Source: Clonostachys chloroleuca (taxonomy: Eukaryota > Ascomycota > Sordariomycetes > Hypocreales > Bionectriaceae). From it: 64,000 nucleotides of DNA. The stretch spans positions 1,116,001 through 1,180,000 of the forward strand of contig JBANAY010000001.1 of the NCBI GenBank assembly GCA_037952775.1, in the 5' to 3' direction. Below are positions 32,162 to 64,000 of the stretch, piece by piece. The position numbers and the translations under genes were made by a program. Each line of letters opens with the position of its first letter. Positions within the stretch are counted from its first letter, which is position 1. The notes under the pieces were generated by a model. The model had not been told where the DNA came from. It searched no databases and saw nothing but the letters and a program-made list of their open reading frames with translations.

Positions 32162-32284
32162 AAGCATTCAGTTTCACACGGATGTACTGTCAGTCGCACC
32201 AACTCGGATGGTAAATAGCATACTTAGGCCATAGAATACCTAGACTATGCTCCCACGTACTGCCTCTCTGAGAAAGACACATTT

Positions 32285-38540: not shown

Positions 38541-38547
38541 TTTAGCC
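38541..38547 (-). promoter_or_regulatory. XlnR-type site GGCTAAA in the divergent DUF5695/GH43 promoter
   Basis: GGCTAAA on the minus strand is the consensus of the xylanase/cellulase activator XlnR/Xyr1. It lies about 210 bp upstream of the GH43 start and 570 bp from the DUF5695 start. A GCGGGG (CreA-type) sequence lies near 38008. Short motifs occur by chance, so weight rests on the neighbouring gene functions. Confidence 0.4.
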
Positions 38548-38755
38548 GCTTCAGATGTCTCAGTTAGGAGTTCGTTTACGATGTGAGCCCCATGCCGTTC
38601 TTACCTGTTTTGAATTAGAGGCGATCAAGCAGTTAGTGGGGATAAAATGGACAACGACCCCGTGGAGAGAGTGAAACCGCAGCTCGAGGTTACCTTCAGA
38701 AACCATTCATTCTTCAAACTAGTTGGATTGTCTTCTTTTCAGTCACTTGGCCACA

Positions 38756-40290: not shown

Positions 40291-40437
40291 GATTTGGGGA
40301 TTGTATGTATTTAGTTTGTAGGCAGTTGAATGACATATGTGTGTTTCTTCCGCGATTTATTTACAGTGAACTATTGAAAGTGTCTGAAATATATACACTG
40401 TATGTAATAAGAGGGAAATTGCTTCTACAACGCCAGC

Positions 40438-42198
40438 TCATGGACTGAGGACATATTCGGCCACGTTGCCCTCCACACGCGGGTAGAACTCGAAGGTAAA
40501 AGTCACCGGCTTGGCAAGAGAAATCACTTTATCAATCGCCGCCGACTTGATAATCACATTGCCGCCTTCGAAGCTCCATTGCCCCTCCCAAGTCTATAAT
40601 AGCAATTAGCATTTCCGAGAGCAGTAATGAGAATAAATGGGAGAACTTACACCACGGGCTTGTTGCAGTGGTCCCAAGTACTGAGTCCAGTCATCGACGA
40701 GGTACGTGCCATCTTCGGCCAGCATCTTGACAGTCGCAAGGCGCTCCAGGCCCTTCCACTCCACTGGGATACTGAGGTCCGAGCCGGCCACCGCTTTGCT
40801 GCTGGTCGAGCCCAGGACTGGGACGTCCCATTGGACGAGTGTGACGGTCGACGACGCGCCGGCAGAGAAATGGAGCGTGAAGGTTTCCTTGACACCAGCC
40901 GCGGACGACGCGTCGATGTACGAAGAGATGATGCTGGACTTGAAGGTGATGGATGCCGATCCCGCCGTATAATCACTTGCGGCGAGCTCTTTCCCGTCGG
41001 CAGTGGTGATGGCCACGAGCGTGTTCCCGTTGAGGATGAACGGCAGCTCCTGGTCACCGACCGCCTCGCCAGCACGGTGGAAGAGGAATGCGGAGGTGGA
41101 CTGCTCAGTAGCTGACCCGTCGACCGTGCTATCAGCAAGAGAGTTGGAAACCCCGGCGGTAGAGCTGTTGATGATGCTCACGACTGTGGGATCGCGGAAC
41201 TCGCCCGTCTCACGATTAAGGTGGTCAAGACCGTTGTCCCATACCGCCACGGTGGCGCCAATCTTGGTCGCCGCGCTCACAAAGTGGTCGTACCACTTCC
41301 ACCTCGCCGCGCTCTCCGTGCTGCGCGGGGTGGCATCAAACTCGCCCACGTAGATAGGCACGCCGCTGAAGTTGCCGCTGACGAGGCCCAGCTCACCATC
41401 CATGGTCGCCTTGTCAGCATCCGAGCCCCAGATGGTCTTCCCCCACGCAGAAAAAGCGAAATCATATGGGCTGTAGTAGTGGATCTGCAGCGCCCAGGGA
41501 TTCTTGACCTCGGCGGGCGGCTTGAACCACTGAGACGTCTTGGTGGCGTCGTTGTTCCCCCCAGCGAGGGTCACGACGCGCTGCGTGTTCCAGTCGCCCG
41601 TCTGGGCAATGGCCTCGAGGAAGACACGGTTGAGCTCGTTGACTTGCGCGCCGTCCTCGGCCGTCGCCGCGGGGGGCTCGTTGATGCTCTCGAAGGCGAC
41701 GGTGGACGGCTTGCAGGCCAGCTTCGTCCCGATCTGCGTCCACAGGGCGCGGAGCTTGGCCTGGATGGCCGAGATGTCGGCGCCGGACTTGCTCACGTCG
41801 GCCCACTCCCACGAGTCGTGGTGGACGTTAGTCACGACGAGCAGGTCCCGTTCGAGGGCAAAGTCGATCACGTCGGACACGCGCTGCAACCAGGCCGCGT
41901 CGACTTGATAATCGGGCGCCTCGCTCGCGAAGTGGTGGGTGTAGGTCACGGGGATGCGGACGCTGTTGAAGCCGGCGGCCTTGACATGGTCAAATGTCGC
42001 TGCAACGACCTTGGGATTGTTCCAAGACCCCTCGTCGGGGATGGCGTCGAGGGTGTTGCCAAGATTCCAGGCTGGGTTCGCGGCCTTGAGGAAGTCGGCG
42101 GCCGAGAGAGCGTTGAAGGTGCCATTGCATTGGGCTGATGTCCTGCATGCCCCCAATGCACAAACAAGGGCACCCGCGGTGCTGACTCGAAGCTTCAT
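40438..42198 (-). CDS. Secreted GH5 endoglucanase-like enzyme with Ig-like and CBM46-like modules
   Basis: A secreted beta-glucanase of 567 residues in two exons (40651-42198 and 40438-40593, intron 57 bp). A signal peptide (MKLRVSTAGALVCALGACRT) precedes the catalytic barrel. NPAWNLGNTLDAIPDEGSW and GFNSVRIPVTYTHHF mark family GH5; the acid/base is in FESINEP and the nucleophile in VYVGEFDA. After the barrel come an Ig/X2-like module (around NGNTLVAITTADGKELAASD) and a final beta-domain ending TFEFYPRVEGNVAEYVLSP. This GH5, X2, CBM46 order is best known from bacterial GH5_4 enzymes active on beta-glucan and xyloglucan. It converges tail to tail with the GH43 gene, 147 bp apart. Confidence 0.88.
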
Positions 42199-47100: not shown

Positions 47101-47756
47101 GCTGTGAACGGTAATGTCTGTTGCCACTCTGCAGACATGACTCATGAAATTACTGTCTCACCCGGTAGCAGAGATTTTCAAGACATATTGCCACGTTCGG
47201 CCTAGAAGGGTTCCGTTCTCGATGAAATGTCCCATAGTTATCCGCGAAACTTCTTCAAGCGTGATGAATACGGCATCCACACCGTTCATCTTAGACAATG
47301 GTCGGGAAGTTTTGCACGAGATCTCGGGAACTGCCTCCACTTTGCCCATGTTGTACTGTTCTGACGCTAAAAACGGCCAGTGAAGATCGTGGGGAAGCAT
47401 GGTCGGATCTCTGCCGTGTCTTGAGGAATGGAAACGAGCGTTTTTGCCGTCATGGCTTTCCCAATTCGTTCTTAGGGTCGACATATCGGGAATGTTGACA
47501 CGGCCGAAGCACTGATCGAGTGCGGCTCTGAGCTGTCATGGACGCTTTGGAATGAGACATTGCCGAGGAGTGTTGCTCTAATGCAGAAGCACACCGAAGA
47601 CGTTGAATCGTCTGAATGAGGATGTCCAACAAGATGGTGCAATATATAACAGAGCTTCCTAGTTCCAACGGCTTTGTTCTAGCAACCAAAGCAATCTTTG
47701 GCCTGGAACTTAAAACGAAACTGTTCAGGTCATTCAAGTTGGCCAAACCCACAACC
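44103..47756. other. 3.6-kb gene-poor stretch
   Basis: Open frames reach at most about 145 codons and none carries a motif, signal peptide or convincing splice pattern. The right end is the upstream region of the giant gene. I see no transposon terminal repeats or RNA genes. Confidence 0.5.
46533..46584. repeat. 27-bp direct repeat
   Basis: GAGTTTTTTCATGTGAGGGTGACGC and GAGTTTGTTCATGTGAGGGTGACGC follow each other with a 27-bp period and one difference. No function is apparent. Confidence 0.8.
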
Positions 47757-50700
47757 ATGGCCACAGGAATCCAATGGTGGAACCGGGCGGCGCTGCTGTC
47801 GCTCGCGTTGCCATCTGTGGATGCCTTCAACTTCCCAGGAAAAGACGATATCATTGTTGACTTTGACCTCAACCTCAGCCGATTATGGCGACGCCAAGAA
47901 AACAAGCCAGAATGCCCGGCATCAGATCTATGTATAGGAGGGTCCTGCACCCAGTCCATCGTCGGCATCGACGCTGCAAACTGCGGACGCAAAGGATATG
48001 AGTGCGAGCCAGGGTATATTTGTGTCGCCGGAGAGTGCGTCCACCTCGACTTCCCCTGCGACTCGCTCCACTGCGGCGAGAAAGACCTGCAATGCAAGCC
48101 AGGTCAATGGTGCAACGAGGGCGAGTGTGTCTCGATTGAGATCTTCGCAGACCCATTACATTGTGGCCCCAAGAACGAAGAATGCAAGGCCAACCAGCTC
48201 TGTGTCAACGGCATCTGCATCGACCTTGACACTATCCCCGACCCTCTACACTGTGGCAAGGACCAAACACCTTGCGACCCGGGAAATTATTGCTTTAACG
48301 GCCAATGTAGGCCTTTCGATATCGGGACGATCCCACAAAATTGCACAATCGACAATGACTGCCCTTTGAAAACCCCTTGCGAGAAGGGAGTATGCCGATC
48401 CTTCCGCGCAGGGCTGGATGTTAACAATTGTGCTAAAAAAGACGACAAATGTGCTCCTGGCGAGCTCTGCATTTCCGACAAGTGTACGCCGCTCAATATT
48501 ACAGGCGACCCTCTTTCATGCGGCCCAGGCTGCCAAAAGTGCGAGCCCGGCCAGGTCTGTCGTTTTGACAAATGTGTCCCCATTATTGTTAGTTTGGACC
48601 CTACTCACTGTGGTGAGGCAGGTCCGCCTTGTGGAAACCAAGAGCTCTGTGTATCTGGTGTCTGCGTGGATATGCGCAACCAGACCGAGTCCAACAAACT
48701 CACCCGTTGCTCTTCTCCCACTCAGGTCTTCCCGCCACTCGGTGTCTCGCCGGATGGACCACCGGCAGTAGGACCAGCCCCAGCATCAGGAGTTGGAGAG
48801 CGCCCATCTCCTGAATATGAAAACCAGCTCAGCCCTGGCGGCGGTTACGTTTCTCCTCAATCTGAGAACCAGCCTAGCCCTGGAGGCGAACAGGTTTTTG
48901 TTGGCGACTCTGCGCCCTGTGTTGAAGGCTGCCCCCCGTTCACTGGTTATCAACCAGAAGGAAATGGTAATCATCCCGGACCTCGCCCTGGAAGTGATTC
49001 CGGCGCTCAACCCGGATCATGCTCTGGGGAAGAGGACTGTGGCTGGAACCAGGTCTGCCGAAACGGAGCATGCGTGGTCAAGGGTGGTCAGTCTGGCTGC
49101 TCAAGTGACAGCGACTGCGGCCCTGACAAGGTTTGCAAGAAGGGAGCATGTGTAATCTCTGGTGGACAGCTTAGCTGTTTTAGTGATACAGAGTGTGGCC
49201 CTGGTAAGGTGTGCAAGAATGGCGGATGTGTTGTCTCTGGGGGTCAGACAAGCTGCTCTCAAAATACAGACTGTGGCTCCGGCCACATCTGTGTCAAGGG
49301 AGTTTGCTCTCCTTCAACTGGACCTTCCGGTTGTGTGAGCACAACCGACTGTCCCGTAGGACACGTCTGCAAAAAGAAGCAATGCATTCCCATTATTGAC
49401 ACCTGCCTGGCTGATTCTGACTGTGAACCTCTTGAGGCTTGCGTCAATGGAACGTGCCAGCCCTCTAGCATACCTCCAAAGTGCTTCATCGACTCCGAAT
49501 GCTTCGCCGGTGAGATCTGCCGTGAAGGCAAGTGTGTTGCCTCCAACCCACAGCCAAGCTGCACGAGCGACTTCGATTGTACTGGTGGTCGCATTTGCCG
49601 AAGCGGAACATGCATCCCCACCTTCTGTTGGACCAGCACTGACTGCGGTGATGGGCTTTCCTGCCGAAACGGCACTTGCTTCCCAACTGGGACTACCATG
49701 TGCTCAAGCAGCGCCGACTGCCGACCTGGCCACATTTGCCAAGGTGGCAAGTGTATTCCTCCGACAAATCCCTCTGGTTGCAACATCGACAATGATTGCG
49801 GTATTGGAAAGGTCTGCCGGAGCGGGACATGTATACTGGAGGATACTATCCCCATCATCTGTTCCAAAGACAACGACTGTGGCAATGGAAAGGTGTGCAG
49901 AAATGAGAAGTGTGTTGCTCAACCACATTACTGCGAGAAGACTCCCGACTGCGCATCCAATGAGATCTGCAACGGTGGTATCTGTGTCCCTTCTACATAT
50001 CCTCAGACCTGCACGACAAGCAATGACTGCCCCTCTGGTCAAAAGTGTCAGGACAGGAAATGCGTAGTGCCAACCGCATGCTTGAAGACCAACGACTGTG
50101 CCCCCAACCAGGTCTGCAAGAACGGAGTTTGCGTGCCGTCCACAACGCCGCCTGGTGGAGACTGCAAGAAGGATGCTGATTGCCCTCCTAAACATGCTTG
50201 CGAAGGTGGCAACTGCATTCTTATTGACTCACCACGCTGTACCTTGGATGCTGACTGCGGTCGAGGCAAGAAGTGTCAAAATGGCACATGCGTGTCGACA
50301 TCGGGTTGTACCATCGACGCTGACTGCCTTGGTCTTCAGATAGAAGGAAAGGCTTGTACAGGAAGCCTCTGCCTATGCATCAACAAAGTTTGTACTCTTG
50401 GAACAGTGCCAAGTCCCGACTGTTCTAATGACTATGACTGTGCCAGCAGCCAGTCGTGCATCGATGGCAAATGTCAAGTACCTTCTGGGCCTGGATCATG
50501 CACCAAGAACGACGATTGCACCGATGGTCAATCATGCATCCATGGAAAGTGCCAAACGCCTTCTGGACCTGTATCTTGCACCAACGATGATGATTGTGGT
50601 GATACCCAGTCGTGTATGAACGGAAAGTGTCAGACACCTTCTGGACCTGGGTCATGCAGCAAGAACGACGATTGCACTGATGGTCAATCATGCATCCATG

Positions 50701-53700
50701 GAAAGTGTCAAACACCTTCTGTCCCTGGGTCGTGCTCCAAGGATGGCGACTGTGGAAAGGGTCAGTCATGCGTCCGTGGAAAGTGTGAAGTGACTCCCGA
50801 AACTCCATGCACCAAGGATTCCGACTGCCTCGGAGGTCTTGTTTGCAATCCCCGCGGATTTTGTGCTCCTCCCGCAACCTGCACCACACGAGATGATTGC
50901 GACAATGGCTTCGTCTGCGGCCCAGCCAAGACTTGCATTCCCGAGCTTCTGCCATGCCTAACACTTACAGATTGCAAGTCAGGCTTTGTTTGTGGACCTG
51001 ACAAGCTCTGCATCCCGCGAACATCCCTCTGTGAGAGCAATGCTGACTGCGGTCCCGGATACACCTGCTCTCCACAGGGTGTCTGCTACATCAACCCAGG
51101 AGGCAACACCTGCGCGCACAACTCAGATTGCGAAGAGGGAACCGTCTGCGGACCAGCCGGCACATGTATTCCAGGTACCCAGCCCACATGCAAGTCTAGC
51201 CAGGACTGTGCCAAAGGCAAGGTCTGCAGCTTGACGGGGTTCTGTGTCCCGGGAGGCTCTCCTCTTTGTCAGTCAGATGCTAATTGCGATATCGGCGACA
51301 TCTGCGGTCCTCTTGGTATTTGTATCAATGTCAATGCTGGGTGTAAGAACGACGCTGAATGTCCAACTGGATTTAATTGCAGCCCATCTGGCATGTGCGT
51401 CCTTGAAAGTGAACAGACCTGTCGAACTGTCCAGGATTGTTTTACTGGACAAGTCTGCACCCCAGCTGGTGTCTGTGTTCCGGAAGGATCGCCTCTGTGC
51501 CAGTCTGATGTCAACTGTGACTTCGGTCTCGTTTGTGGTCCTCTTGGAATTTGTATTCCCGGAAAGAATAGTTGCAGCTCCAACGAGGACTGTGGCGGAG
51601 GCTTCATCTGCGGTCCTACTAGGGAATGTGTTCCTGGGGGTCAAGACACTTGCAAAGTTGATCGAGATTGCGGCCCTAATCGTAAATGCAGCTCAACTGG
51701 CGCTTGCGTCCCTCCAGACTCTTCCCTTTGCCAGACTAATGCCAACTGCGACATCGGGCTCATTTGTGGTCCGCTTGGAATCTGTATCAAAGGGAATAAT
51801 AGCTGCAACATTAATGATGACTGTCGACAAGGCTTTATCTGTGGCCCCGCTAAGGTCTGTGTCCCTCGAAGTCAAGACACCTGCAGCGTTGACCAGGACT
51901 GCGGCAATGGTCGTATCTGCAGTCCGACTGGCGCATGTGTCCCTGCCGGTTCTCCAATCTGCAGCTCGATTGCTAATTGCGATGTTGGTTTCATCTGTAG
52001 CCCAACCGGAGTTTGCATCCCTGGAACCAACAATTGCACTGGCGACAAAGACTGTGGCGAAGGCTTTGTGTGCGGGCCATTGAAGACGTGCGTCCCTCGA
52101 GGTAACGATGCCTGCAAAACCAACCAAGATTGTGGTGTCGGCCACGTTTGCACCCCAAGTGGTATCTGCGTCCTGGATGGTTCACCGGTCTGCACCTCGA
52201 ATGTTAATTGCGGCCCTGGCCTTGTCTGTGGTCCGCTGGGCACTTGCGTTCCTGGTAGCAATACGTGCAGCCTCAACATCGATTGTGGAACGGGATTTAT
52301 TTGCGGTCCTGCGAAGGTTTGCATCCCTGGAGGCCAAGACACTTGCAAGTCTGATCAGGAATGCGGAATCGGGCGTTTTTGCAGCCCAGCAGGTGTCTGT
52401 GTCACCTCCGGTTCTCCTGATTGTCGTTCCAACGCAAACTGTGCCCCTGGATTTGTCTGCGGACCGCTTGGTACGTGTATCCCAAATGACAATGGCAGCT
52501 GCACCCTTGATAGAGACTGCCAGGGTGGATATATCTGTGGCCCATCAAAGACCTGCATCCCTTCCACTCCAGATGTCTGTGGCCCGACCCGGCCTTGCAA
52601 GACTGGACAGGTGTGCAGCTCCACTGGTGTCTGTGTTTCCGACGACTCTCAACTTTGTGATACAAACCGGAAGTGTAGCTCCGGCTTTATCTGCGGGCCA
52701 CTCGGTACGTGTGTCCCAGATACTAGCGGCAGCTGCACCGCCGACCAGGACTGCGCTGCTGGATTCATCTGTGGGCCTACCAAGACGTGTATTCCGCGTG
52801 GTCAGCCTACATGTGGGACTGGGGGACAGATCTGCGGAGTTGGTCAAGTTTGTAGCTCTACCGGTGTCTGTGTTCCGAATGGCTCTCCCCTATGTACCAC
52901 AAACGAAAACTGTGACTTCGGCCTTGTCTGCGGTCCCCTTGGAATCTGCATCACGGGAAGTGGTACCCGCTGCACCGTCAAAGGTGACTGCCCGCCACGT
53001 TTTGAGTGTGGTCCAGCCGGAACCTGCATTCCCGAAGTCGAAGGGTCTTGTCAGTCGAACGCAAATTGTGGCCCCGGCCAAGTGTGTGGACCGAATGGTA
53101 TTTGCGTTCCGGACCCCAAGTGCACCGCGGATAGCGACTGTGGCGTCGGATTCACCTGCGGCCCATCCAGCGTGTGTATCCCTAAAGGCACGGATACGTG
53201 CACTGCAGGTGGCAACTGTGGCATCGGACGTGTGTGTAGCCCTCTCGGAGTCTGCGTTCCAGATGGCTCGGCCTTGTGCCAGAAGGATAAAGACTGCGGT
53301 CTTGGCCAGATATGCGGGACGCTTGGTATCTGTACCTCAGATACCACCAATAACTGTACTCTGGACAAGGATTGCAACCCGGGCTTCGTATGTGGGCCGT
53401 CGAAGACGTGTGTTCCGGACACCGCGGGCACTTGTAGGGGGAATCGTGACTGCTCTGGAGGTCTCGTATGCAGCCCTCTGGGAGTGTGCGTCCCACCTGG
53501 CTCACCTCTTTGCCAGACAGGCCAAAACTGCGAGAAGAATTTCATCTGTGGCCCTCTAGGTACTTGTATCCCCGGACCCATCGATACTTGCACCGGCCAA
53601 GATGATTGCAATGCTGGATTTGTTTGTGGTCCCTCGGGCATCTGCATCCCACAGGGCCAGCCGGGCTGCAAATCGAAAGCAGATTGCGGACCCGGACTCG

Positions 53701-56700
53701 CATGTAGCCCCAACGGGGTCTGTATCCCCGAAGGTTCACCTGTCTGCAGAACGAATGACAATTGTGCTGTCGGTTTCATTTGCGGCCCGCTCGGAATCTG
53801 TATCGAAGACCCCTTGCTTTGCAGAGCCAATTCAGACTGCCGCGATGGCCTTGTGTGTGGTCCTCGGGGCATCTGCGTTCCTGGAGGAAGCACAGCTTGC
53901 ACCGTTCCAAGCGATTGCACACTCGGCCTCATCTGCGGCCCTCTGGGCATTTGCATTGACGTTGGTTTTACGTGCACCACAAATGATAATTGCAATGGTG
54001 GACTCATCTGTGGCTCGAACGGGTTCTGTATCTCTCCCACCTGCAACAACAACCGTGGCTGCCAGGATGGGTTTATTTGTGGTCCAGCCAACCTCTGTAT
54101 CCCGGAGTTCGGAACCTGCCAAAATGACCAAGGCTGCCGGGCTGGTTTCAGCTGTGGTGCCACTGGTATCTGCGTACCTATTCCTGGAGACTGCCAAGGC
54201 AACGGACAATGCCCGGATGGCCTCATCTGTGGACCTTCCAACAAGTGTATCCCAGGCGGCGCTCTATGTCAGCTTGACGCAAACTGCGGCACTGGATATT
54301 TCTGTGGCCCTGCAGGTTTATGTATACCCAAGGATCTCACTTGTCGAGATGAAAGTACCTGCGCAGCTGGCCAGACCTGCGGTCCTTTGGGGCTCTGCGT
54401 TGCCGTTCCTGGTCTCACCTGCAACTCAAACACCGATTGCGCGACTGGATACACCTGCAGCGAAAGTAAGAAGTGCATTCTGAACTTTTCCGGGTGCAGC
54501 ACGGACAGCCAGTGCCCTGCGAACTTCACTTGCGGCGCTGGAGGTATCTGTATCCCAAAGGTCAATAGTTGCCAAAGCAAACAGGACTGTGGCGCCGGAT
54601 TCCTCTGCGGGCCAACCGGCCTCTGTATTCCAGAAGTGGCACTTTGTCAGAAAGCTGAGGACTGTGGCGCAGGCTTTGCCTGCAGTGTTAGTGGCCTCTG
54701 TCTTCCAGAGAATCTTGGTTGCCAGACCAATGCAAACTGCGCGTCAGGATTCGTCTGTGGTCCCCTGGGGCTATGTACGGAACCCATAACCCCTCTCTGC
54801 AAGACTGACGGTGAATGTGGCCAAGGCTACAAGTGCGGCACTTCTGGAATCTGTATCCCGAATCTGCAAAGTTGCCAGGGTAATGCTGAATGTGGGAACA
54901 GTCTCATCTGCAGCCCTGCTGGCGTTTGCATCCCCGATTACAAGGCTTGCCTATCTGCAGCAGACTGTGATAGCAACTCGACATGCGGGCCAGCCGGACT
55001 CTGTATTCCCAAGTCAGTCATCTGCGGCACTTCAAACAGCTGTGGCGATGGATTTACCTGCGGCCCAGCTGGATTTTGCATCCAGAGCAACAAGATTTGC
55101 CGAACAAATGCCAACTGTGATACTGGGTCTATCTGCGGACCTTTCGGGCTCTGCATTCCAGGTACTGGTCTCACATGCCAGAAGGACAACGATTGTGATA
55201 CGGGCTTCACCTGTGGACCTCTCAAGCTATGCATCAAGACTGGCCCGGCTTGCCAGAACAACAATCAGTGTCTCCCCGGCTTCAACTGCAATCCCGCTGG
55301 AAACTGCGTCCCGAATGTTCCTGGTGGTTGCGCCAGCGATACGGATTGTGCCCCTGGCAACTTCTGCACTCTCGACCGCTCGTGTGAGCTCAACGACCTG
55401 CGTTGCACGACCAATGCCGAGTGCAAACCCGGCTTTAGCTGCAACAGGGCTGGCTTCTGCTCTCCCACGACTCTTGTCTGCAAGTCTGACCAGGAGTGCT
55501 TGGCTGGCTTCAAGTGCAGCCTGTCTGGGCAGTGCATTTCCGCAAATGATCTGAGTTGCAACGTGGATGGCGATTGCCTTGTGGGATTCTCTTGCGGCGC
55601 CAACAAGTATTGTATCCCCAAGGCACCCAGCTGCACCAAGGACAACGAATGCCAGCTAGGATTTGCCTGTGGCCCGTTGAACACTTGTATCTTGAAGAGC
55701 GATTTGGCTTGCACGACAAGCAATGACTGCAAGAACGGTTTCATTTGTGGCCCTGGAAAACTTTGCGTCAATCCTCTTCTCTCTGGTCTTCCTTGCAAGG
55801 TTAAGGGCGACTGTGCTCTTGGCTTGACCTGTGGCCCAGCTGGATACTGTGTGCCTGGAGACCTTTCAACCTGCAGCAAAAACGAGGATTGCGCACAGGG
55901 TTTGCTGTGCAGTTTAGCCAATCTCTGCGTTTCGCCCGACAAGCAGTGTCAAGTCGACTCAGATTGCGCGGGTGATATCCTGTGTGGCCCGCTAAAGATT
56001 TGCCTCGACGTCTATCTTGGCTGCAAGAGCAACGATGAGTGTGATTCAAACTTTCTTTGCGGTCTTGCTGGTTTCTGCATCCCCAAGGGATTCACTTGCG
56101 AGGCAGAGAAGGATTGTGCTGCAGGTTTCACCTGTGGCGTTGCTGGCCTCTGCATTCCAGCTACCAAGAACACCTGCAATACCTCAGAGGACTGTGACAA
56201 GGGATTCACCTGTGGCCCTTTGAACATCTGTATTCCCGATTCGCTCAGCTGCCTCAAGAATGGGGATTGTTCTCCAGGGTTCGCCTGCGGCCCAGCCGGC
56301 CTTTGCCTCCCAACTGGCGAACTGACTTGCTCTGCCACTCAAGAATGTCCTCAGGGCTTTAAATGTGGATCTGCAGGTCTTTGCCTGCCTGATGATCTGG
56401 TCTGCCAGACTGATCGGGATTGCGCCTCTGATTTTATATGCGGCAAGGGTGGCATCTGCATTCCCAAAGTCCTAACCTGTAAGCTGGACAAGGACTGTGA
56501 TGTAGGCCTCAAGTGTGGCCCGATTGGTCTTTGCATTACTCTCGGGGAGTTGACTTGCAAGGAAAACGCAGAGTGTGGTGATGGCTTCATTTGCGGTTTG
56601 GCCGGGCTCTGCATTCCCAAGGATTTAGGTTGCAATACAGACGCCAGTTGCCGCAGCGGATTTGTCTGCGGTCCAGCCGGGCTATGTATTCCTCAAACTC

Positions 56701-59700
56701 TTGGCTGTAAGTCCAAGTCTGATTGCAGCGCCGGATTCAACTGTGGTCCTTTAGGACTTTGCGTCCCTGAGATCCTTGGGTGTAGGACTAATACAGATTG
56801 CACCGGAGGTTTCGAGTGCAGCTCAATTGGAACATGCTTGCCTCCAAATTCCTCGACCTGCAAAGCCAATAATGATTGCGGCCGAGGTTTTGTCTGTGGT
56901 AGTGCAGGGCTATGCGTCCCAGAGGGCTTGGACTGCGGCAGTTCAAATTCCTGCAAGACTGGATTCGTCTGTGGCCCAGCAGGCCTTTGTGTCCCGGATA
57001 CCCTCTTCTGTTCGAAGAATGAGGATTGCGGTCAGGGCTTTGCGTGCTCAAGGGCCGGTCTTTGCATCCCGAACTACTTGGTCTGCAGTAGCGATAACAA
57101 TTGCTCCAACGGATTTGTCTGCAGTCTTTCCGGCCTTTGTATTCCGTCCAACGATCTACAGTGCACGACCAACAAGGACTGTGTTCCAGGATTCGCTTGC
57201 GGCACCGCTGGCCTCTGCGTCCCCGATCTTAGCTGCAAGAAGAACAGCGATTGCTCTGGCGGTCAGGTATGTAGATTGGATGGAATCTGCGTGCCTGATG
57301 TCGGGAATCTTGTGTGCTCCAAGAATGACGACTGCAAGCAAGGCGACATCTGTGGTAGCGCAGGACTATGTGTCCCGGGTAATCTTCTCTGCAACGCTTC
57401 ACAGCCTTGCCAACAGGGCTTTACTTGTGGCCCGGCGGGATTTTGTATTCCAATTGGAAACCTGTTCTGCAAAGCCAACACTGACTGCCCTAGTGACCAC
57501 TCCTGTGGCCCGGTTGGTATTTGCATTCCCAACAATCTTCGCTGCCAGACCAAGAATGACTGCAACACTGGATTCGACTGTAGTGCATCTGGGCTCTGTG
57601 TTCCGGCCTCGCTTTTCTGTACCAAGAACGAGGACTGCAAAGCCCCATTGACCTGCGGCATTGCGAATTTGTGCATTGCCATTAGCGATGTCCTTTGCAA
57701 GTCAAATGAGGACTGCCTGAGTGGTTACAGCTGTGGCCCTGCAGGGACTTGCCTTCTGAACGCGTTCTTCTGTTCAAATGATGTTGACTGTGATGAAGGC
57801 GAAACATGTGGACCGGAATCCGTTTGTGTCCCGGATAAGCTTCTGTGCAAAGTGGATGATGATTGCATCCAAGGCTTTGTCTGCGGCACCGCAGGAATCT
57901 GTCTGCCCGGCGGCGGTGTGACGTGCAATGCAAACACCGGCTGCTCACCAGGGTTCAAATGCGGCCCTCTCGGTGTCTGTATCCCTTCCAACTTGGGTTG
58001 CCAGTCGAACGGCGAATGCGGTACAGGGCTTACTTGCGGCCCTGCCGGGGTGTGTATTCCTGGTGATCTTCTTTGCAACGGGGATGATAACTGCTCGACG
58101 GGCTACTTCTGCGGTCCAGCCGGTCTTTGTATCCCCAAGTTACTCTCTTGCCAGAATAACGACAGTTGTGAGAAAGGCCTAGTCTGCAGTCTGGCTGGGC
58201 TTTGCATTCCTTCAGGTGACTTGAACTGCAAATCGAGCCGTGATTGCTCCGGAAACCTCATCTGTGACTTGTCTGGCCAATGCGTCCCAGGAGGCGGTTT
58301 GACTTGTCAGGCGGACACTGATTGTCTCCTTGGGTTCAAGTGCGGTCCTCTCGGGCTTTGTATCAAGATCGATCTTGGTTGCAAGACGGATGCCGACTGC
58401 GGCCAGGATAAGAGCTGTGGACCAGCTGGTCTCTGTCTACCAAAATCTGGCACGTGCAAAGCCAACAGTGACTGCGCGTCAGGTCTCCTCTGTGGCCTCG
58501 GTGGATTGTGCATTCCTGATCTTGGACTCTCGTGTGGTTCGAACGGAAACTGCGCCCCTGGTCTGGTCTGCAGCGGACAGCCGTTGAATCTCTGCATCCC
58601 TCAAGTTCTCAACTGCAATACCAATACAAAATGCAGTGCCGGTCAGGTGTGCAACGCCCTCGGGGTATGCGTGCCAGATCTGCTTGGCACATGCACCACC
58701 AACGCCGAGTGCGAGGCCACATTTGGATGCAGTCTCGCAGGGATCTGCGTCCCTGGCATCGATCTTGCTTGTACGAATAGCGGTACGAGCGGCAAAATTT
58801 GCCCAACTGGCTTCAAGTGCGGCATCACGGGTCTTTGCGTGCCGGACACTGGCTTCCCTTGCAGTGGTGTTGAGAAATCGTGCCCTCGCGGCTACGTCTG
58901 TGGTGTTGCGGACCTGTGCGTGCCCGACTTGCCGGGTGTGAACTGCAACCAGAATTCAGAATGCAATACGGGTTTCATCTGCAACAGTGCCAAACTCTGC
59001 ATTCCGGATCTGTCGCTGGCGTGCAAGGCGGATGGTGACTGCCCAGCCGACTTCCGGTGTGGAAGCAGCAAATTGTGTGTGCCCAATTTCCCAGTCACGT
59101 GCGACGCGAACGCGTCTTGCCCTCAGGGCTTCTCGTGCAACAGCGCAGGTGTCTGCACTCCTACCTCTGGCTCCGGGTGCCAGTCGAACAACGACTGCGA
59201 AGGAGCAGCAACTTGTGTCTCTGGATTCTGTGTTCCGGAGATCGTCGCCGCCTGCAAGGCGAATCAGGACTGTGCCTCGCCTCTTGTGTGCACTCTGGGA
59301 CTCTGCCTCCCCGATCTCCTTCCTACGTGTGCTACCGACAGCCAGTGTCCAAATCCCTTGGTTTGCCGATCAGGTACCTGCGTCCCTGATTCAGTACCTA
59401 TCTGCAATTCCGATTTGAACTGTGCCCAAGGCACCAGCTGCGTTGGCGGCATTTGCATTCCCAAGGTTCCCAACACTTGCCGAGCAGATGGTGATTGCGT
59501 CGCGCCCTTGGCCTGTACCGAAGGCCTATGTCTTCCCAAGATCTTGCCAACATGTGATGGTACAGACGACTTGCAGTGCAAGGATCCGTTAGTATGCCGA
59601 CGAGGAGTATGTGTCCCCGGCTCCCTTCCTCTATGCAGTGTCAACCTTGACTGTGCTCAAGGCCACAGCTGCGTGGCTGATATCTGTATCCCTGACGTTG

Positions 59701-62700
59701 TTGATGCTTGCATCGTCGATCGTGATTGTCGCTACGACGCTCTGACATGTCAACTCGGACTTTGTCTTCCCAAGATTCTGCCGGCTTGCGAACGTGACAA
59801 CCAGTGCAAGAACCCCTTGGTATGCAGACAAGGCCTCTGTGTTCCAGATACCCTTCCTGTCTGCAACGACGACCAAGATTGCGGACCCGGGAACAGCTGC
59901 TTGGCGGGAATATGTGTCCCCAGAACCCCGGGTAGCTGCAGACTCGACGTAGATTGCAAGTCAGACTCTCTCGCCTGCACCCTTGGTGTTTGTCTCCCGA
60001 AGGTACTTCCAATCTGTGATGCCACACGCGAGTGCAAGGATCCGTTCGTCTGCAGGGATGGAACCTGCATTCCGAAATCCCTTCCCGTCTGTCAAAGTAG
60101 TTTACAATGCGGCAGTGACAGCAAGTGTCTGGGAGGTGTATGTGTCCCCGACCTAGTCAAGAATTGCCAGACCGCGCAAGACTGCGGTGCTTACTCTACC
60201 TGTTTCCTCGGTGTCTGTCTCCCTGAGATACTGCCTTCTTGTGCCACCGACAACGAGTGCGAAGACCCTCTGGTTTGCCGGGTCGGAAAGTGTGTGCCCA
60301 AAGCCCTACCACTATGCAATAGCAACACCAACTGCGATTCAGGATATAGCTGCCTGGCGGATATTTGCGTTCCAAACGTCCCGAATACCTGCAAGATCAA
60401 CACCGACTGTGGCAACTCTCTGGTGTGCACCCTTGGTCTTTGCCTGCCTCAGATTCTGCCATCATGTGAAAATGATGATAGCTGCAACGACCCATTGGTC
60501 TGTCGACAAGGCACTTGTGTTCCTAAAGCTGAACCCCTTTGCAATAATAGCAATGACTGCGCTGGAGGATCTAGCTGCATTGCTAATATTTGTGTCCCAG
60601 ATCTCTTCCAGACTTGCAAGCAAGACGAGGAATGCAGTGACTCCCTGCTGTGCAAACTTGGTGTATGTCTACCAAGAATCCTGCCCACATGCGACGGTAA
60701 CAACCCATGCAAAAACCCCCTCTCGTGCAAATCGGGTACTTGTGTGCCAGAAACGCTACCTGTGTGTCAAAGCAACGTTGATTGTGGCCAAGAAGCCACT
60801 TGCATCGCCGGCATCTGCATTCCCAAGATAATCAACAACTGCAAGACCAACAGCGATTGCGGTGGTTCTCCTCTTGCGTGCACCCTCGGTCTTTGCTTAC
60901 CACAGATTCTTCCGACGTGTCAAGATGGAGCTGCCAACAGCTGCGCTGATCCCCTCATCTGTCGACTAGGAACTTGCGTGCCCAGCTTTATTCCTCGATG
61001 TGGAAGCAATAATGACTGTGATACGGGTTCCAGTTGTATCGCTAATACCTGCATCCCCAATACTGTCGACCCGTGCAAAACCACTGGTGACTGTGCGGGT
61101 TCGCTCGTGTGCAAACTCGGCGTTTGCCTTCCGGAAATCTTGCCAGGGTGCCAGACTGATAGTAACTGCGACGGCCAGCTTGTCTGCAGACTGGGAACAT
61201 GCGTGCCGAACAATGTTCCGGTTTGCAGTACGAACAACGAGTGTGGCCGAGGGTCAAGCTGCATTGCCAACATCTGCGTTCCCGATCTCCTCCAGAACTG
61301 CAAGGATTCCGCTCAATGCAAGGATTCCCTGGTCTGTAAGCTTGGCCTGTGTCTCCCCAGTATTCTACCTCAGTGCCAAGCAGATTCCGAGTGTGGCGAT
61401 TCTCTTGCCTGCCGACTTGGTACATGCGTGCCCAAGGCTGTCCCTGTATGCAACAACGACGGCGACTGCGGTGCAGGCTCCAAGTGCATTGCTGATATTT
61501 GTATTCCTCAATTCATCACCACTTGTGGAAAGGACGCCGATTGCGGCAATTCACTCGTCTGCAATCTTGGAGTTTGCATTCCACCGATCCTACCAACATG
61601 CGATACACAATCAGACTGCAGAAGTCCCCTTCTCTGCCGCCTTGGCACCTGTGTGCCAGACTTCGTCCCATTGTGCAAGAGCGGCTCAGACTGCCGCAAT
61701 GGGTTCAGCTGCATTGCCGACATTTGCGTCCCTGATCTTGCCGCGACATGTCAGACAACACAGGACTGCGATGGCGCTCTGGTCTGCACGCTTGGTCTGT
61801 GCCTCCCTGGTATTCTTCCCCATTGTCAGACCGACACACAATGCACCGGCTCCCTTGTCTGCCGATCTGGAACGTGTGTGCCGAAAACGCTTCCTCTCTG
61901 CAATGCCAATAGCGATTGTGATCAAAATGCCAGCTGTCTTGCTGGAATTTGTGTTCCCAATCTGGTCCAGAGCTGCAAGGCCAACGGAGATTGTTCTGGC
62001 TCACTGGTCTGCACTCTCGGTGTCTGTCTTCCTCCCGTTCTTCCTACATGCGGAAATGGTGCCAAGTGCAAGAGCCCTCTGGTCTGCAAGCAAGACAAGT
62101 GTGTACCCGACTTCGTCCTATCTTGTGCCGACTCCCGTGAATGCAAGACTGGGTCAAGCTGCTTGGGCGGGCTATGTCTTCCCGACCTCGTCGATTCTTG
62201 CCGCGAAACGGCGGATTGCCAAATGCCTCTTGTCTGCAACCTGGGCGTCTGCCTGCCGCAAGGCCTTGGACAATGTAGCACTAGCATCGACTGCGTCGAC
62301 AACCTTGTGTGCAAGTCGGGAACATGCCTACCAAGTACACTTCCTGTTTGCCAAGATTCAGCTGGCTGCGCTCAGACGGAGACCTGTATCGCTGGCATCT
62401 GCATTCCCAATACTCCTGGAACCTGCAAGACCAAGGCCGACTGTATCGGTTCTCTCACCTGCACTCTTGGTTTGTGTCTTCCTGAGATCCTCCCCACTTG
62501 CCAGGCTGATAATCAATGCTCTGGCTCACTTGTCTGTAGACAGGGCACTTGCGTTCCCGATTCCCTTGCCCTTTGCAACGTTAGCACTGACTGCAAGGGT
62601 CCTGGACTCAACTGTCTTGGAGGCATCTGTGTCCCTCAGACTATCAACAAGTGCCTATCTGACGGCGACTGTGGTAGCGATTCGCTCAAGTGCAGCCTTG

Positions 62701-64000
62701 GCCTCTGCCTGCCCCCTGTGCTCCCTCCATGCACGCAGGACAGCCAATGCAGGGATCCTTTGAAGTGCAGGCTCGGACTCTGCGTTCCTCCCGCGATTCC
62801 CGTTTGCAATGTCAAAGCAGACTGCGGCACCAGCGACAGTTGTGTAGGTGGAGTCTGTGTCCCTGACCTGGTTAGTAGCTGCACCCAAGACTCGGAGTGT
62901 CCCAATTCCCTCTCGTGTACACTTGGATTCTGTCTTCCTGAGATTCTCCCCAACTGTGACAGCAATGACAAGTGCAACGGCTCTTTGGTCTGTAAACTGG
63001 GCACCTGCGTGCCGCCTGGTCTGCCTCTCTGCAAGACTGCTACCGACTGCGATGCAGACCAGAGTTGTTCTGGAGGGCTCTGTTTCCCTACCGCAGCGAA
63101 GCAATGTCAAGCGTCCCTCGACTGCGAATCAGGTCTTGTCTGCAAGGCCGGCTTCTGTCTGCCGAATAACACTCCTATTTGCAGCGGTAATGACCTATGC
63201 GCGAGCTCCCTTGTCTGCAGATTAGGTTTCTGTGTCCCAGACATCTTCCCTATCTGCTCCACAAAGGCGGACTGTGGCCCTGGAAAGACTTGCAATAACG
63301 GCGTGTGCATCCCAGAAGCCCTGCCAACTTGTCGGGCTTCGAGTGACTGCGCAAGCCCACTGGTTTGTACTCTTGGCTTCTGCCTCCCACCAGTTATCGA
63401 CGACTGCAAGAACGGACAATCTTGTGGAAGCGGATATGCCTGCTCACCCGCAGGCTTCTGTTTCCCCGAGACGCTCGCCACTTGCGCCAAGGTCACTGAC
63501 TGTGGCCCCAATCTCACATGTAGTTCCGGTGGACTTTGTGTGCCGAATCTTCTGCCGCAGTGCGATGTTGCTGGTGGACTTACTTGTGAGGCCCCTCTTC
63601 AATGCACGGCTGGGCTTTGCCTTCCGCGATTCTCCAACTCTTGCAATACCAACATCGATTGCGGTCCTGGTCTTGCCTGTGGCAGTCTCGGTCTTTGCGT
63701 ATCCGTGAGCATCAACACCTGTACTCAGCCTGGTGATTGTGGTGCCGGCCTGACCTGCGGCCCATTGGGTCTATGTGTGCCCGACTTGGTGCCTACTTGC
63801 AGTGCGAATAAGCCATGTCTCCCTGGCTACGCTTGTAGTATTGCTGGAGTCTGCGTCCCATCAGGTCTACCAGCCTGCGATGCTAACCAGGCCTGCGCTT
63901 CTGGACTGGTTTGCAGTCTCGCTGGTCTGTGCCTCCCATCACTGCTTGATACATGCTCGAAGAATACAGATTGCGGCCCCAGATTCTCCTGCAACCCGTC
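47757..64000 (+). CDS. Giant secreted cysteine-rich repeat protein (partial, runs off the window)
   Basis: One uninterrupted, intronless frame starts at the ATG at 47757 (MATGIQWWNRAALLSLALP), has at least 5,414 codons, and is still open at the window end. A signal peptide ends near SVDA, and LWRRQ about 50 residues in is a Kex2-type site. The first 320 residues hold irregular Cys motifs with a repeated DPLHCG. A Pro/Gly/Ser-rich linker follows (about 48710-49010), then repeats of about 26 residues to the end, each C-x5-C-x5-C-x4/5-C-[IVL]-P, often with DC at the second Cys and CGPAG or CRLGTC at the third. By length there are roughly 190. The spacing recalls Dickkopf N-terminal and similar disulfide-rich modules, but I recognise no characterised family. 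No membrane segment is seen. A cell-wall, adhesive or matrix role is inference. Confidence 0.9.
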   Translation, partial: MATGIQWWNRAALLSLALPSVDAFNFPGKDDIIVDFDLNLSRLWRRQENKPECPASDLCIGGSCTQSIVGIDAANCGRKGYECEPGYICVAGECVHLDFPCDSLHCGEKDLQCKPGQWCNEGECVSIEIFADPLHCGPKNEECKANQLCVNGICIDLDTIPDPLHCGKDQTPCDPGNYCFNGQCRPFDIGTIPQNCTIDNDCPLKTPCEKGVCRSFRAGLDVNNCAKKDDKCAPGELCISDKCTPLNITGDPLSCGPGCQKCEPGQVCRFDKCVPIIVSLDPTHCGEAGPPCGNQELCVSGVCVDMRNQTESNKLTRCSSPTQVFPPLGVSPDGPPAVGPAPASGVGERPSPEYENQLSPGGGYVSPQSENQPSPGGEQVFVGDSAPCVEGCPPFTGYQPEGNGNHPGPRPGSDSGAQPGSCSGEEDCGWNQVCRNGACVVKGGQSGCSSDSDCGPDKVCKKGACVISGGQLSCFSDTECGPGKVCKNGGCVVSGGQTSCSQNTDCGSGHICVKGVCSPSTGPSGCVSTTDCPVGHVCKKKQCIPIIDTCLADSDCEPLEACVNGTCQPSSIPPKCFIDSECFAGEICREGKCVASNPQPSCTSDFDCTGGRICRSGTCIPTFCWTSTDCGDGLSCRNGTCFPTGTTMCSSSADCRPGHICQGGKCIPPTNPSGCNIDNDCGIGKVCRSGTCILEDTIPIICSKDNDCGNGKVCRNEKCVAQPHYCEKTPDCASNEICNGGICVPSTYPQTCTTSNDCPSGQKCQDRKCVVPTACLKTNDCAPNQVCKNGVCVPSTTPPGGDCKKDADCPPKHACEGGNCILIDSPRCTLDADCGRGKKCQNGTCVSTSGCTIDADCLGLQIEGKACTGSLCLCINKVCTLGTVPSPDCSNDYDCASSQSCIDGKCQVPSGPGSCTKNDDCTDGQSCIHGKCQTPSGPVSCTNDDDCGDTQSCMNGKCQTPSGPGSCSKNDDCTDGQSCIHGKCQTPSVPGSCSKDGDCGKGQSCVRGKCEVTPETPCTKDSDCLGGLVCNPRGFCAPPATCTTRDDCDNGFVCGPAKTCIPELLPCLTLTDCKSGFVCGPDKLCIPRTSLCESNADCGPGYTCSPQGVCYINPGGNTCAHNSDCEEGTVCGPAGTCIPGTQPTCKSSQDCAKGKVCSLTGFCVPGGSPLCQSDANCDIGDICGPLGICINVNAGCKNDAECPTGFNCSPSGMCVLESEQTCRTVQDCFTGQVCTPAGVCVPEGSPLCQSDVNCDFGLVCGPLGICIPGKNSCSSNEDCGGGFICGPTRECVPGGQDTCKVDRDCGPNRKCSSTGACVPPDSSLCQTNANCDIGLICGPLGICIKGNNSCNINDDCRQGFICGPAKVCVPRSQDTCSVDQDCGNGRICSPTGACVPAGSPICSSIANCDVGFICSPTGVCIPGTNNCTGDKDCGEGFVCGPLKTCVPRGNDACKTNQDCGVGHVCTPSGICVLDGSPVCTSNVNCGPGLVCGPLGTCVPGSNTCSLNIDCGTGFICGPAKVCIPGGQDTCKSDQECGIGRFCSPAGVCVTSGSPDCRSNANCAPGFVCGPLGTCIPNDNGSCTLDRDCQGGYICGPSKTCIPSTPDVCGPTRPCKTGQVCSSTGVCVSDDSQLCDTNRKCSSGFICGPLGTCVPDTSGSCTADQDCAAGFICGPTKTCIPRGQPTCGTGGQICGVGQVCSSTGVCVPNGSPLCTTNENCDFGLVCGPLGICITGSGTRCTVKGDCPPRFECGPAGTCIPEVEGSCQSNANCGPGQVCGPNGICVPDPKCTADSDCGVGFTCGPSSVCIPKGTDTCTAGGNCGIGRVCSPLGVCVPDGSALCQKDKDCGLGQICGTLGICTSDTTNNCTLDKDCNPGFVCGPSKTCVPDTAGTCRGNRDCSGGLVCSPLGVCVPPGSPLCQTGQNCEKNFICGPLGTCIPGPIDTCTGQDDCNAGFVCGPSGICIPQGQPGCKSKADCGPGLACSPNGVCIPEGSPVCRTNDNCAVGFICGPLGICIEDPLLCRANSDCRDGLVCGPRGICVPGGSTACTVPSDCTLGLICGPLGICIDVGFTCTTNDNCNGGLICGSNGFCISPTCNNNRGCQDGFICGPANLCIPEFGTCQNDQGCRAGFSCGATGICVPIPGDCQGNGQCPDGLICGPSNKCIPGGALCQLDANCGTGYFCGPAGLCIPKDLTCRDESTCAAGQTCGPLGLCVAVPGLTCNSNTDCATGYTCSESKKCILNFSGCSTDSQCPANFTCGAGGICIPKVNSCQSKQDCGAGFLCGPTGLCIPEVALCQKAEDCGAGFACSVSGLCLPENLGCQTNANCASGFVCGPLGLCTEPITPLCKTDGECGQGYKCGTSGICIPNLQSCQGNAECGNSLICSPAGVCIPDYKACLSAADCDSNSTCGPAGLCIPKSVICGTSNSCGDGFTCGPAGFCIQSNKICRTNANCDTGSICGPFGLCIPGTGLTCQKDNDCDTGFTCGPLKLCIKTGPACQNNNQCLPGFNCNPAGNCVPNVPGGCASDTDCAPGNFCTLDRSCELNDLRCTTNAECKPGFSCNRAGFCSPTTLVCKSDQECLAGFKCSLSGQCISANDLSCNVDGDCLVGFSCGANKYCIPKAPSCTKDNECQLGFACGPLNTCILKSDLACTTSNDCKNGFICGPGKLCVNPLLSGLPCKVKGDCALGLTCGPAGYCVPGDLSTCSKNEDCAQGLLCSLANLCVSPDKQCQVDSDCAGDILCGPLKICLDVYLGCKSNDECDSNFLCGLAGFCIPKGFTCEAEKDCAAGFTCGVAGLCIPATKNTCNTSEDCDKGFTCGPLNICIPDSLSCLKNGDCSPGFACGPAGLCLPTGELTCSATQECPQGFKCGSAGLCLPDDLVCQTDRDCASDFICGKGGICIPKVLTCKLDKDCDVGLKCGPIGLCITLGELTCKENAECGDGFICGLAGLCIPKDLGCNTDASCRSGFVCGPAGLCIPQTLGCKSKSDCSAGFNCGPLGLCVPEILGCRTNTDCTGGFECSSIGTCLPPNSSTCKANNDCGRGFVCGSAGLCVPEGLDCGSSNSCKTGFVCGPAGLCVPDTLFCSKNEDCGQGFACSRAGLCIPNYLVCSSDNNCSNGFVCSLSGLCIPSNDLQCTTNKDCVPGFACGTAGLCVPDLSCKKNSDCSGGQVCRLDGICVPDVGNLVCSKNDDCKQGDICGSAGLCVPGNLLCNASQPCQQGFTCGPAGFCIPIGNLFCKANTDCPSDHSCGPVGICIPNNLRCQTKNDCNTGFDCSASGLCVPASLFCTKNEDCKAPLTCGIANLCIAISDVLCKSNEDCLSGYSCGPAGTCLLNAFFCSNDVDCDEGETCGPESVCVPDKLLCKVDDDCIQGFVCGTAGICLPGGGVTCNANTGCSPGFKCGPLGVCIPSNLGCQSNGECGTGLTCGPAGVCIPGDLLCNGDDNCSTGYFCGPAGLCIPKLLSCQNNDSCEKGLVCSLAGLCIPSGDLNCKSSRDCSGNLICDLSGQCVPGGGLTCQADTDCLLGFKCGPLGLCIKIDLGCKTDADCGQDKSCGPAGLCLPKSGTCKANSDCASGLLCGLGGLCIPDLGLSCGSNGNCAPGLVCSGQPLNLCIPQVLNCNTNTKCSAGQVCNALGVCVPDLLGTCTTNAECEATFGCSLAGICVPGIDLACTNSGTSGKICPTGFKCGITGLCVPDTGFPCSGVEKSCPRGYVCGVADLCVPDLPGVNCNQNSECNTGFICNSAKLCIPDLSLACKADGDCPADFRCGSSKLCVPNFPVTCDANASCPQGFSCNSAGVCTPTSGSGCQSNNDCEGAATCVSGFCVPEIVAACKANQDCASPLVCTLGLCLPDLLPTCATDSQCPNPLVCRSGTCVPDSVPICNSDLNCAQGTSCVGGICIPKVPNTCRADGDCVAPLACTEGLCLPKILPTCDGTDDLQCKDPLVCRRGVCVPGSLPLCSVNLDCAQGHSCVADICIPDVVDACIVDRDCRYDALTCQLGLCLPKILPACERDNQCKNPLVCRQGLCVPDTLPVCNDDQDCGPGNSCLAGICVPRTPGSCRLDVDCKSDSLACTLGVCLPKVLPICDATRECKDPFVCRDGTCIPKSLPVCQSSLQCGSDSKCLGGVCVPDLVKNCQTAQDCGAYSTCFLGVCLPEILPSCATDNECEDPLVCRVGKCVPKALPLCNSNTNCDSGYSCLADICVPNVPNTCKINTDCGNSLVCTLGLCLPQILPSCENDDSCNDPLVCRQGTCVPKAEPLCNNSNDCAGGSSCIANICVPDLFQTCKQDEECSDSLLCKLGVCLPRILPTCDGNNPCKNPLSCKSGTCVPETLPVCQSNVDCGQEATCIAGICIPKIINNCKTNSDCGGSPLACTLGLCLPQILPTCQDGAANSCADPLICRLGTCVPSFIPRCGSNNDCDTGSSCIANTCIPNTVDPCKTTGDCAGSLVCKLGVCLPEILPGCQTDSNCDGQLVCRLGTCVPNNVPVCSTNNECGRGSSCIANICVPDLLQNCKDSAQCKDSLVCKLGLCLPSILPQCQADSECGDSLACRLGTCVPKAVPVCNNDGDCGAGSKCIADICIPQFITTCGKDADCGNSLVCNLGVCIPPILPTCDTQSDCRSPLLCRLGTCVPDFVPLCKSGSDCRNGFSCIADICVPDLAATCQTTQDCDGALVCTLGLCLPGILPHCQTDTQCTGSLVCRSGTCVPKTLPLCNANSDCDQNASCLAGICVPNLVQSCKANGDCSGSLVCTLGVCLPPVLPTCGNGAKCKSPLVCKQDKCVPDFVLSCADSRECKTGSSCLGGLCLPDLVDSCRETADCQMPLVCNLGVCLPQGLGQCSTSIDCVDNLVCKSGTCLPSTLPVCQDSAGCAQTETCIAGICIPNTPGTCKTKADCIGSLTCTLGLCLPEILPTCQADNQCSGSLVCRQGTCVPDSLALCNVSTDCKGPGLNCLGGICVPQTINKCLSDGDCGSDSLKCSLGLCLPPVLPPCTQDSQCRDPLKCRLGLCVPPAIPVCNVKADCGTSDSCVGGVCVPDLVSSCTQDSECPNSLSCTLGFCLPEILPNCDSNDKCNGSLVCKLGTCVPPGLPLCKTATDCDADQSCSGGLCFPTAAKQCQASLDCESGLVCKAGFCLPNNTPICSGNDLCASSLVCRLGFCVPDIFPICSTKADCGPGKTCNNGVCIPEALPTCRASSDCASPLVCTLGFCLPPVIDDCKNGQSCGSGYACSPAGFCFPETLATCAKVTDCGPNLTCSSGGLCVPNLLPQCDVAGGLTCEAPLQCTAGLCLPRFSNSCNTNIDCGPGLACGSLGLCVSVSINTCTQPGDCGAGLTCGPLGLCVPDLVPTCSANKPCLPGYACSIAGVCVPSGLPACDANQACASGLVCSLAGLCLPSLLDTCSKNTDCGPRFSCNP
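50404..50800 (+). repeat. Near-identical 78-bp repeats inside the giant gene
   Basis: Five consecutive units of about 26 codons share PSGPGSCTKNDDCTDGQSCI and HGKCQT almost unchanged, at protein and DNA level. They are the most recently duplicated part of the array that I can see and a likely site of copy-number variation or assembly collapse. Confidence 0.8.
51240..54250 (+). repeat. Block with a three-unit higher-order repeat (about 240 bp)
   Basis: Here the units cycle through three types: one with CSPTGVCVP followed by GSPLCQ, one with CGPLGICIP, and one with GFICGPAKTCIP followed by DTC. The trio of about 78-80 residues recurs about a dozen times, so duplication acted on trios as well as on single units. 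Confidence 0.7.
54250..59160 (+). repeat. Block of single-unit repeats (CGPAGLCIP type)
   Basis: Units mostly read L-x-C-x5-C-x2-GF-x-CGPAGLCIP with little sign of the three-unit period to the left and right. Repeats are more diverged from each other than in the 50.4-50.8 kb cluster. Confidence 0.65.
59160..63110 (+). repeat. Block with a second, different three-unit higher-order repeat
   Basis: Units cycle through LVCTLGLCLPEILP, then PLVCRLGTCVPKALP, then GSSCIAGICIPNLV types. The trio of about 79 residues recurs about 16 times. The trio is unrelated in detail to the one at 51.2-54.2 kb, so it arose separately. After about 63110 the array returns to mixed units up to the window end. Confidence 0.7.

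Follow-up and report, generated by a model that had tools for sequence, protein, structure and literature searches.

A single-frame gene for a giant triad-ordered protein of four-cysteine modules in Clonostachys chloroleuca, with a probable extracellular structural role

The window analysed here (64,000 nucleotides; positions 1116001-1180000 of contig C1 in the 59.37 Mb, 4-contig genome assembly of Clonostachys chloroleuca) carries the first part of a giant gene, which starts at window position 47757 on the plus strand and comprises 8,183 codons in one uninterrupted frame. The gene is real and under selection: its codon usage is like that of its neighbours, and in one zone the order of its modules in triads is conserved with synonymous sites near chance. 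Its product is most plausibly a secreted, non-enzymatic, disulfide-stapled structural filament of the wall or matrix, mechanically similar to Dumpy of Drosophila. The families to which its modules belong are known and, as far as our searches show, functionally uncharacterised.

Reading frame and protein layout

From the ATG at 47757 to the window edge at 64000 the frame is stop-free (5,414 codons, 825 cysteines), as had been reported in a sequence-only reading of this DNA. Extension of the contig past the window, a check which that reading suggested, located a stop codon ending at C1:1188308 (window-equivalent 72308), and the full-length protein contains 1,284 cysteines. The 50 kb of contig sequence covering this extension include no N. 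Over the same 24.5 kb, the remaining five frames hold 76, 345, 149, 111 and 259 stops, and the base composition of the window predicts 340 stops in 8,183 codons. Synonymous codon use was correlated with that of six Pfam-matched open reading frames of the window (r 0.90), as against 0.47-0.67 for three control frames (two shifted and one antisense).

An alternative in-frame ATG lies upstream at 47616; the start at 47757 was preferred because of a TATA-like stretch before it and a signal-peptide-like start after it, both judged by eye. Hidden introns were rejected, as only two intron-like motifs (53 and 62 nucleotides) were matched inside the frame and neither length is divisible by three, so that splicing either one would break the frame. 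The contrast drawn earlier between an unsplit giant gene and neighbours divided by introns holds only in part: the amidohydrolase frame at 28883-30409 spans its entire Pfam profile without interruption, whereas the MFS and DUF5695 frames cover only part of theirs. The features of the gene and its product are as follows (window positions, strand, description and basis).

47642-47649, plus: putative TATA-like stretch about 110 bases 5' of the proposed ATG (by eye)
47757-64000, plus: giant gene, first 5,414 of 8,183 codons (open frame; codon usage; stops in other frames)
47757-47894, plus: signal-peptide-like start and short pro-segment, residues 1-46, with dibasic RR at 45-46 (cleavage judged by eye)
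47913-48710, plus: STIG1-like cysteine-rich head, residues 53-318 (Pfam Stig1 match over residues 1-317; own-genome search)
48711-49046, plus: Pro/Ser/Gly-rich hinge, residues 319-430 (cysteine-poor, 5 Cys in residues 318-430)
49047-50291, plus: array of four-cysteine modules with a short third loop (5-5-4), residues 431-845 (module parsing; DUF7107 matches)
50307-50393, plus: six-cysteine variant module, residues 851-879 (module parsing)
50391-59156, plus: long array, modules mostly 5-5-5 and about 26 residues in length, residues 879-3800 (parsing; AlphaFold model; period 3 clearest at residues 1060-1879)
59178-63383, plus: triad array (A-B-C order) of 5-5-4 modules, mostly 25 residues long, residues 3808-5209 (parsing; AlphaFold model)
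63642-64000 and on past the window, plus: further 5-5-5 array from residue 5296 to about 7100 (module parsing)
Past the window, plus: compact DPY-like tail of 20-residue modules with two-residue linkers, residues about 7457-8127 (parsing; Pfam)

The dibasic site at residues 45-46 precedes the first cysteine, and the predicted mature mass is 820 kDa. Six-cysteine variants total four (residues 851-879, 7216-7241, 7273-7299 and 8155-8181), of which the last forms the C-terminus and the last three lie outside the window. The C-terminal 19 residues have a Kyte-Doolittle hydropathy of 1.99; because the internal six-cysteine module is similarly hydrophobic (1.97 for the stretch from residue 7224), this is probably a property of the module and not an anchor. 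By eye, no separate glycosylphosphatidylinositol (GPI) signal or transmembrane segment is evident, although the C-terminal six-cysteine module is hydrophobic. At third codon positions GC content climbs from about 0.50-0.59 to 0.66 over the final quarter of the gene (residues about 6000-8183, from window-equivalent position about 65750), a hint that the tail may differ in origin or age.

Modules, families and relatives

Two parsings agree on 314 four-cysteine modules in the full protein, which take in 1,256 of the 1,284 cysteines, and 280 of the 314 have loops of 5-5-4 or 5-5-5 residues. When the protein was shuffled 200 times, a looser pattern was matched 11.3 times on average and 22 times at most, against 314 matches observed. 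The part within the window holds 201 complete modules and 825 cysteines; the earlier estimates were about 190 and over 700. The first parsing, by regular expression, was off register by one cysteine in some stretches, including residues 1060-1879; re-parsing returned the same module count and the same period-3 result, and the phase statistics given below for residues 1060-1879 rest on the first parsing.

Pfam searches were performed with curated cut-offs on seven pieces, together covering residues 1-5000 and 5416-8183. DUF7107 (PF23416; cut-off 24.6) exceeded its cut-off in all seven (189.8, 67.9, 25.7 and 266.7 bits in four pieces of the window part; 41.4, 66.7 and 79.9 bits in the other three), with 13 stretches within the first 1,000 residues. 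STIG1 (PF04885) was matched by the head only (75.1 bits; cut-off 24.1) and Dumpy_DPY by the tail (32.9 bits in 10 stretches; cut-off 27), which also matched the PDB entry 1oig (E 0.044). Dickkopf_N (cut-off 25) reached 50.6 bits in residues 1-1000 and 29.3 bits in the tail, fell to 16.4 bits in residues 1001-2000 and was not listed for the next two pieces; EB exceeded its own cut-off in residues 1-1000. Ldl_recept_a was listed only for residues 2001-3500, as one partial stretch (25.2 bits; cut-off 24.1; profile positions 12-31 of 37), and entries of the LDL-receptor type were also among the structural matches listed. These hidden Markov model comparisons, likewise proposed in the sequence-only reading, show that its likening of the modules to Dickkopf-N or colipase folds "only in Cys spacing" was too weak a statement. 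In the same Pfam scans no EGF family, no catalytic domain and no Dickkopf C-terminal family was reported, and no ZP family was found in the C-terminal 1,368 residues. NCBIfam, applied to two pieces, gave a single match below its cut-off (37.5 bits against 100).

One AlphaFold model each was computed from the long array (residues 879-3800) and the triad array (residues 3808-5209), and both weakly resemble the two-disulfide core of squash knottins. The models superpose on EETI-II, and the modules bear some likeness in sequence and fold to EETI-II and MCoTI. The three-disulfide knot and reactive loop of the squash family were not found; every module has four cysteines except for the four six-cysteine variants. 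DPY was not among the structural matches listed for the models, and a family missing from these lists is not thereby excluded.

Modules of this kind occur at five further loci of the same genome, all of which match DUF7107 (counts are lower bounds):

C1:1404521-1415783, minus: relative A, three partly overlapping open frames with 47, 13 and 65 modules
C3:35177037-35182220, minus: 1,728-codon open frame
C1:6162212-6164797, plus: 862-codon open frame
C1:4815269-4820292, plus: several frames
C3:21268819-21271383, minus: several frames, with one stop within the head match

The STIG1-like head is common to four of the five (those at C1:1.41 Mb, C1:4.82 Mb, C3:21.27 Mb and C3:35.18 Mb). Both frame changes in relative A (C1:1.41 Mb) lie near runs of C and could reflect faults of assembly or genuine breaks.

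Two protein-library searches at E 1e-3 retained 2 of 1529 and 7 of 1610 candidates (P0001-P0009), which share the cysteine spacing and carry 13 to 43 modules each by the looser pattern. Their arrays are shorter than that of the giant protein, the array of P0001 stands beside bacterial TSP3 repeats, and they are at most putative homologues of the giant protein. The matches named by organism (P0001, P0005 and P0008) are archaeal or bacterial; no library match bears a fungal name, which is uninformative as the library seems poor in fungal proteins. P0002 (4,100 residues) matches both DUF7107 and Dumpy_DPY, so that the two modules co-occur outside the genome studied. Among the open-access papers searched, none names DUF7107 or "Dickkopf N-terminal", and no title or opening of an abstract describes a giant triad-ordered architecture. 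Passages of PMC9978495, PMC3828140, PMC4859500 and PMC5999205 deal with small cysteine-rich, CAP-type or STIG1-domain proteins, none of them like the giant protein.

Upstream of the giant gene, window positions 28883-42198 hold genes for an amidohydrolase, a DUF5695 protein, a GH43 protein and a GH5 protein with CBM_X2; the GH43 and GH5-CBM_X2 genes suggest plant-polysaccharide degradation. An Rfam scan of the window gave no match, a scan for bacterial-type promoters gave matches at chance level only, and PDB matches of two neighbouring enzymes added little or nothing. Contigs C1-C4 measure 6.50, 0.08, 37.47 and 15.32 Mb, with ribosomal DNA repeats on C2 and at the end of C3; 37 Mb seems very large for a chromosome of a filamentous ascomycete, and the 37.47 Mb contig may join several chromosomes. 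The ITS read from C2 seems to resemble that of Clonostachys rosea, a mycoparasite of the Hypocreales.

Triad order and selection

Module-to-module identity has peaks at offsets 3, 6 and 9, and in both parsings the excess at each of these offsets lay above that of all 1000 local shuffles. For the zone from residue 3808, 48 of the 55 modules have the exact length of 25 residues and were used (7 were dropped). There, identity outside the cysteines is 0.377, 0.396, 0.388, 0.396 and 0.388 at offsets 3, 6, 9, 12 and 15, compared with 0.197 to 0.214 at offsets 1, 2, 4, 5, 7 and 8. Third-base agreement at conserved fourfold codons of the same zone ranges from 0.235 to 0.350 in phase and from 0.234 to 0.316 out of phase; pooled by hand, the values are about 0.29 and 0.28, and chance is 0.275. 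Because amino-acid identity has been retained with synonymous sites near chance, the triad order in this zone is old and has been kept by selection at the protein level. A recent satellite-like expansion was rejected as the source of its triads on the same near-chance synonymous identity.

The three triad positions differ in character. One is hydrophobic (mean non-cysteine hydropathy 0.13 vs -0.36 and -0.39; 0 of 5000 permutations), another has Lys or Arg after the third cysteine in 18 of 18 modules, and the third is the most acidic, with a net charge of -1.53 (75 of 5000 permutations for charge). The same period is seen in a second zone, residues 1060-1879 (identity 0.421 at offset 3). Synonymous identity there is above chance (0.461 at offset 3, n=76; 0.483 at offset 4, n=29), so that zone may have undergone some recent duplication. 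Outside the two triad zones, much of the chain has little period-3 signal.

Proposed filament, alternatives and known systems

A secreted, disulfide-stapled, regular extracellular protein, as the sequence-only reading had it, fits the signal-peptide-like start, the RR at residues 45-46, the mass of 820 kDa, the lack of a catalytic Pfam domain and the intact modules. Once the signal peptide has been removed and, probably, a Kex2-type cut made at residues 45-46, an 820 kDa chain would be left, with the STIG1-like head, the Pro/Ser/Gly hinge and some 300 mini-domains in a string. The most likely form of each mini-domain is a cystine-stabilised beta-hairpin with two disulfides (Cys1-Cys3 and Cys2-Cys4, the squash core minus its third disulfide), joined to the next by a short linker, usually one residue followed by Pro. 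At a guessed 2 nm or so per bead, the string would be about half a micrometre long or longer. It would resist proteases and unfolding and could serve as a load-bearing element or coat in the wall, the septal matrix or an adhesive layer of the hypha. In the triad zones, where every third bead is alike, one type of contact could recur at regular intervals and serve side-by-side packing or the binding of a ligand. Of the wall, adhesive, sheath or matrix role named earlier, the extracellular structural character fits, but the four sites are not distinguishable from sequence. The open frame, the modules and their triads, the purifying selection and the family matches are established by the data, while secretion, the disulfide pattern, the filament form, the location and the role are inferences. 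More tentatively, and with less confidence than in the structural role as such, we suggest an undescribed class of matrix fibre: an independently evolved, Dumpy-like load-bearing filament of the fungus, 820 kDa in mass, with about 300 two-disulfide knottin-core beads and a selected three-bead repeat that sets lateral packing.

The alternative that survives best, though we regard it as unlikely, is a soluble multivalent binder or effector whose knottin-like faces would contact a host, prey or competitor; its triads would then be three specificities repeated for avidity. Strong variation of the modules outside the cysteines, the differences in charge and hydropathy between triad positions, the STIG1 and Dickkopf_N likeness (families that include signalling members) and the lack of a detected wall anchor all favour it; against this, some 300 modules and 820 kDa far exceed what avidity needs, and none of the known ligand-binding loops was recognised. 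Tandem knottin-like units on short linkers could also come from a polyprotein precursor that is processed into numerous small knottin peptides, but we consider this improbable, as the linkers lack dibasic sites: none of the 307 linkers of up to 11 residues (6 longer ones were left out) has two adjacent Lys or Arg residues, 207 of the 307 have Pro as second residue, and the whole protein has only four KR or RR sites, one of them in the pro-segment and the others within modules. Such peptides would also be missing the third squash disulfide, except perhaps in the four six-cysteine variants.

Still less probable is an array of protease inhibitors in which each bead is a squash-type trypsin inhibitor, as the likeness to EETI-II and MCoTI might suggest. 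The squash reactive site is carried on the Cys1-Cys2 loop; this loop precedes the aligned core, and the giant protein has a variable linker in its place. Pfam Squash also stayed under its cut-off of 22 (19.9 and 15.2 bits). A decayed gene or assembly artefact is scarcely credible: the frame changes of relative A and the stop in the head match at C3:21.27 Mb point to errors or decay within the family, but here 8,183 codons are stop-free, triads are kept despite saturated synonymous sites, and the DNA is too diverged for easy repeat collapse, a tandem repeat finder having reported only two arrays in the window part of the frame (49113-49277 and 50450-50786, with 72-79% matches).

The usual account of fungal walls and adhesive layers rests on glucan, chitin, mannoproteins, hydrophobins and GPI adhesins. 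If the filament reading is true, a single-frame 820 kDa chain with more than 600 predicted disulfides would represent another sort of load-bearing or protective material, and its secretion would make extreme demands on oxidative folding. Selection has retained a three-module order beyond synonymous saturation, and a piece of 3-9 modules is small enough for production and structure solution.

Among known systems, the DUF7107 repeat proteins have the same module as the giant protein; the family is one of unknown function, so membership explains nothing by itself. STIG1 of plants and the Dickkopf N domain of animals are domains of small signalling proteins, the former matched by the fungal head and the latter by parts of the chain. 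In the alignment with the squash trypsin inhibitors the module cysteines correspond to Cys2, 3, 5 and 6 of the squash numbering, but the giant protein lacks the third disulfide and the reactive loop and has about 300 units per chain. A small two-disulfide beta-sheet core, which the modules may share, is described as CSB or Min-23 in PMC2659701. SCREPs (PMC6262176) are likewise secreted proteins with disulfide-rich domains in tandem; the search for them was limited in length to avoid far larger proteins, and the main text of that paper has no words beginning with fungi or fungal.

The comparison with Dumpy, as described in PMC2930355 and PMC12456955, rests on its being a gigantic secreted protein and on the DPY module in the fungal tail. 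The fungal protein differs in its Pfam scans, which have no EGF or ZP match, in a triad made of one module type, and in a single uninterrupted frame where dumpy is reported to have 78 coding exons. Because of the missing EGF and ZP matches we do not class it as a member of the Dumpy family, despite its DPY-like modules and its triads; the giant gene offers a testable fungal parallel to the giant matrix proteins of insects.
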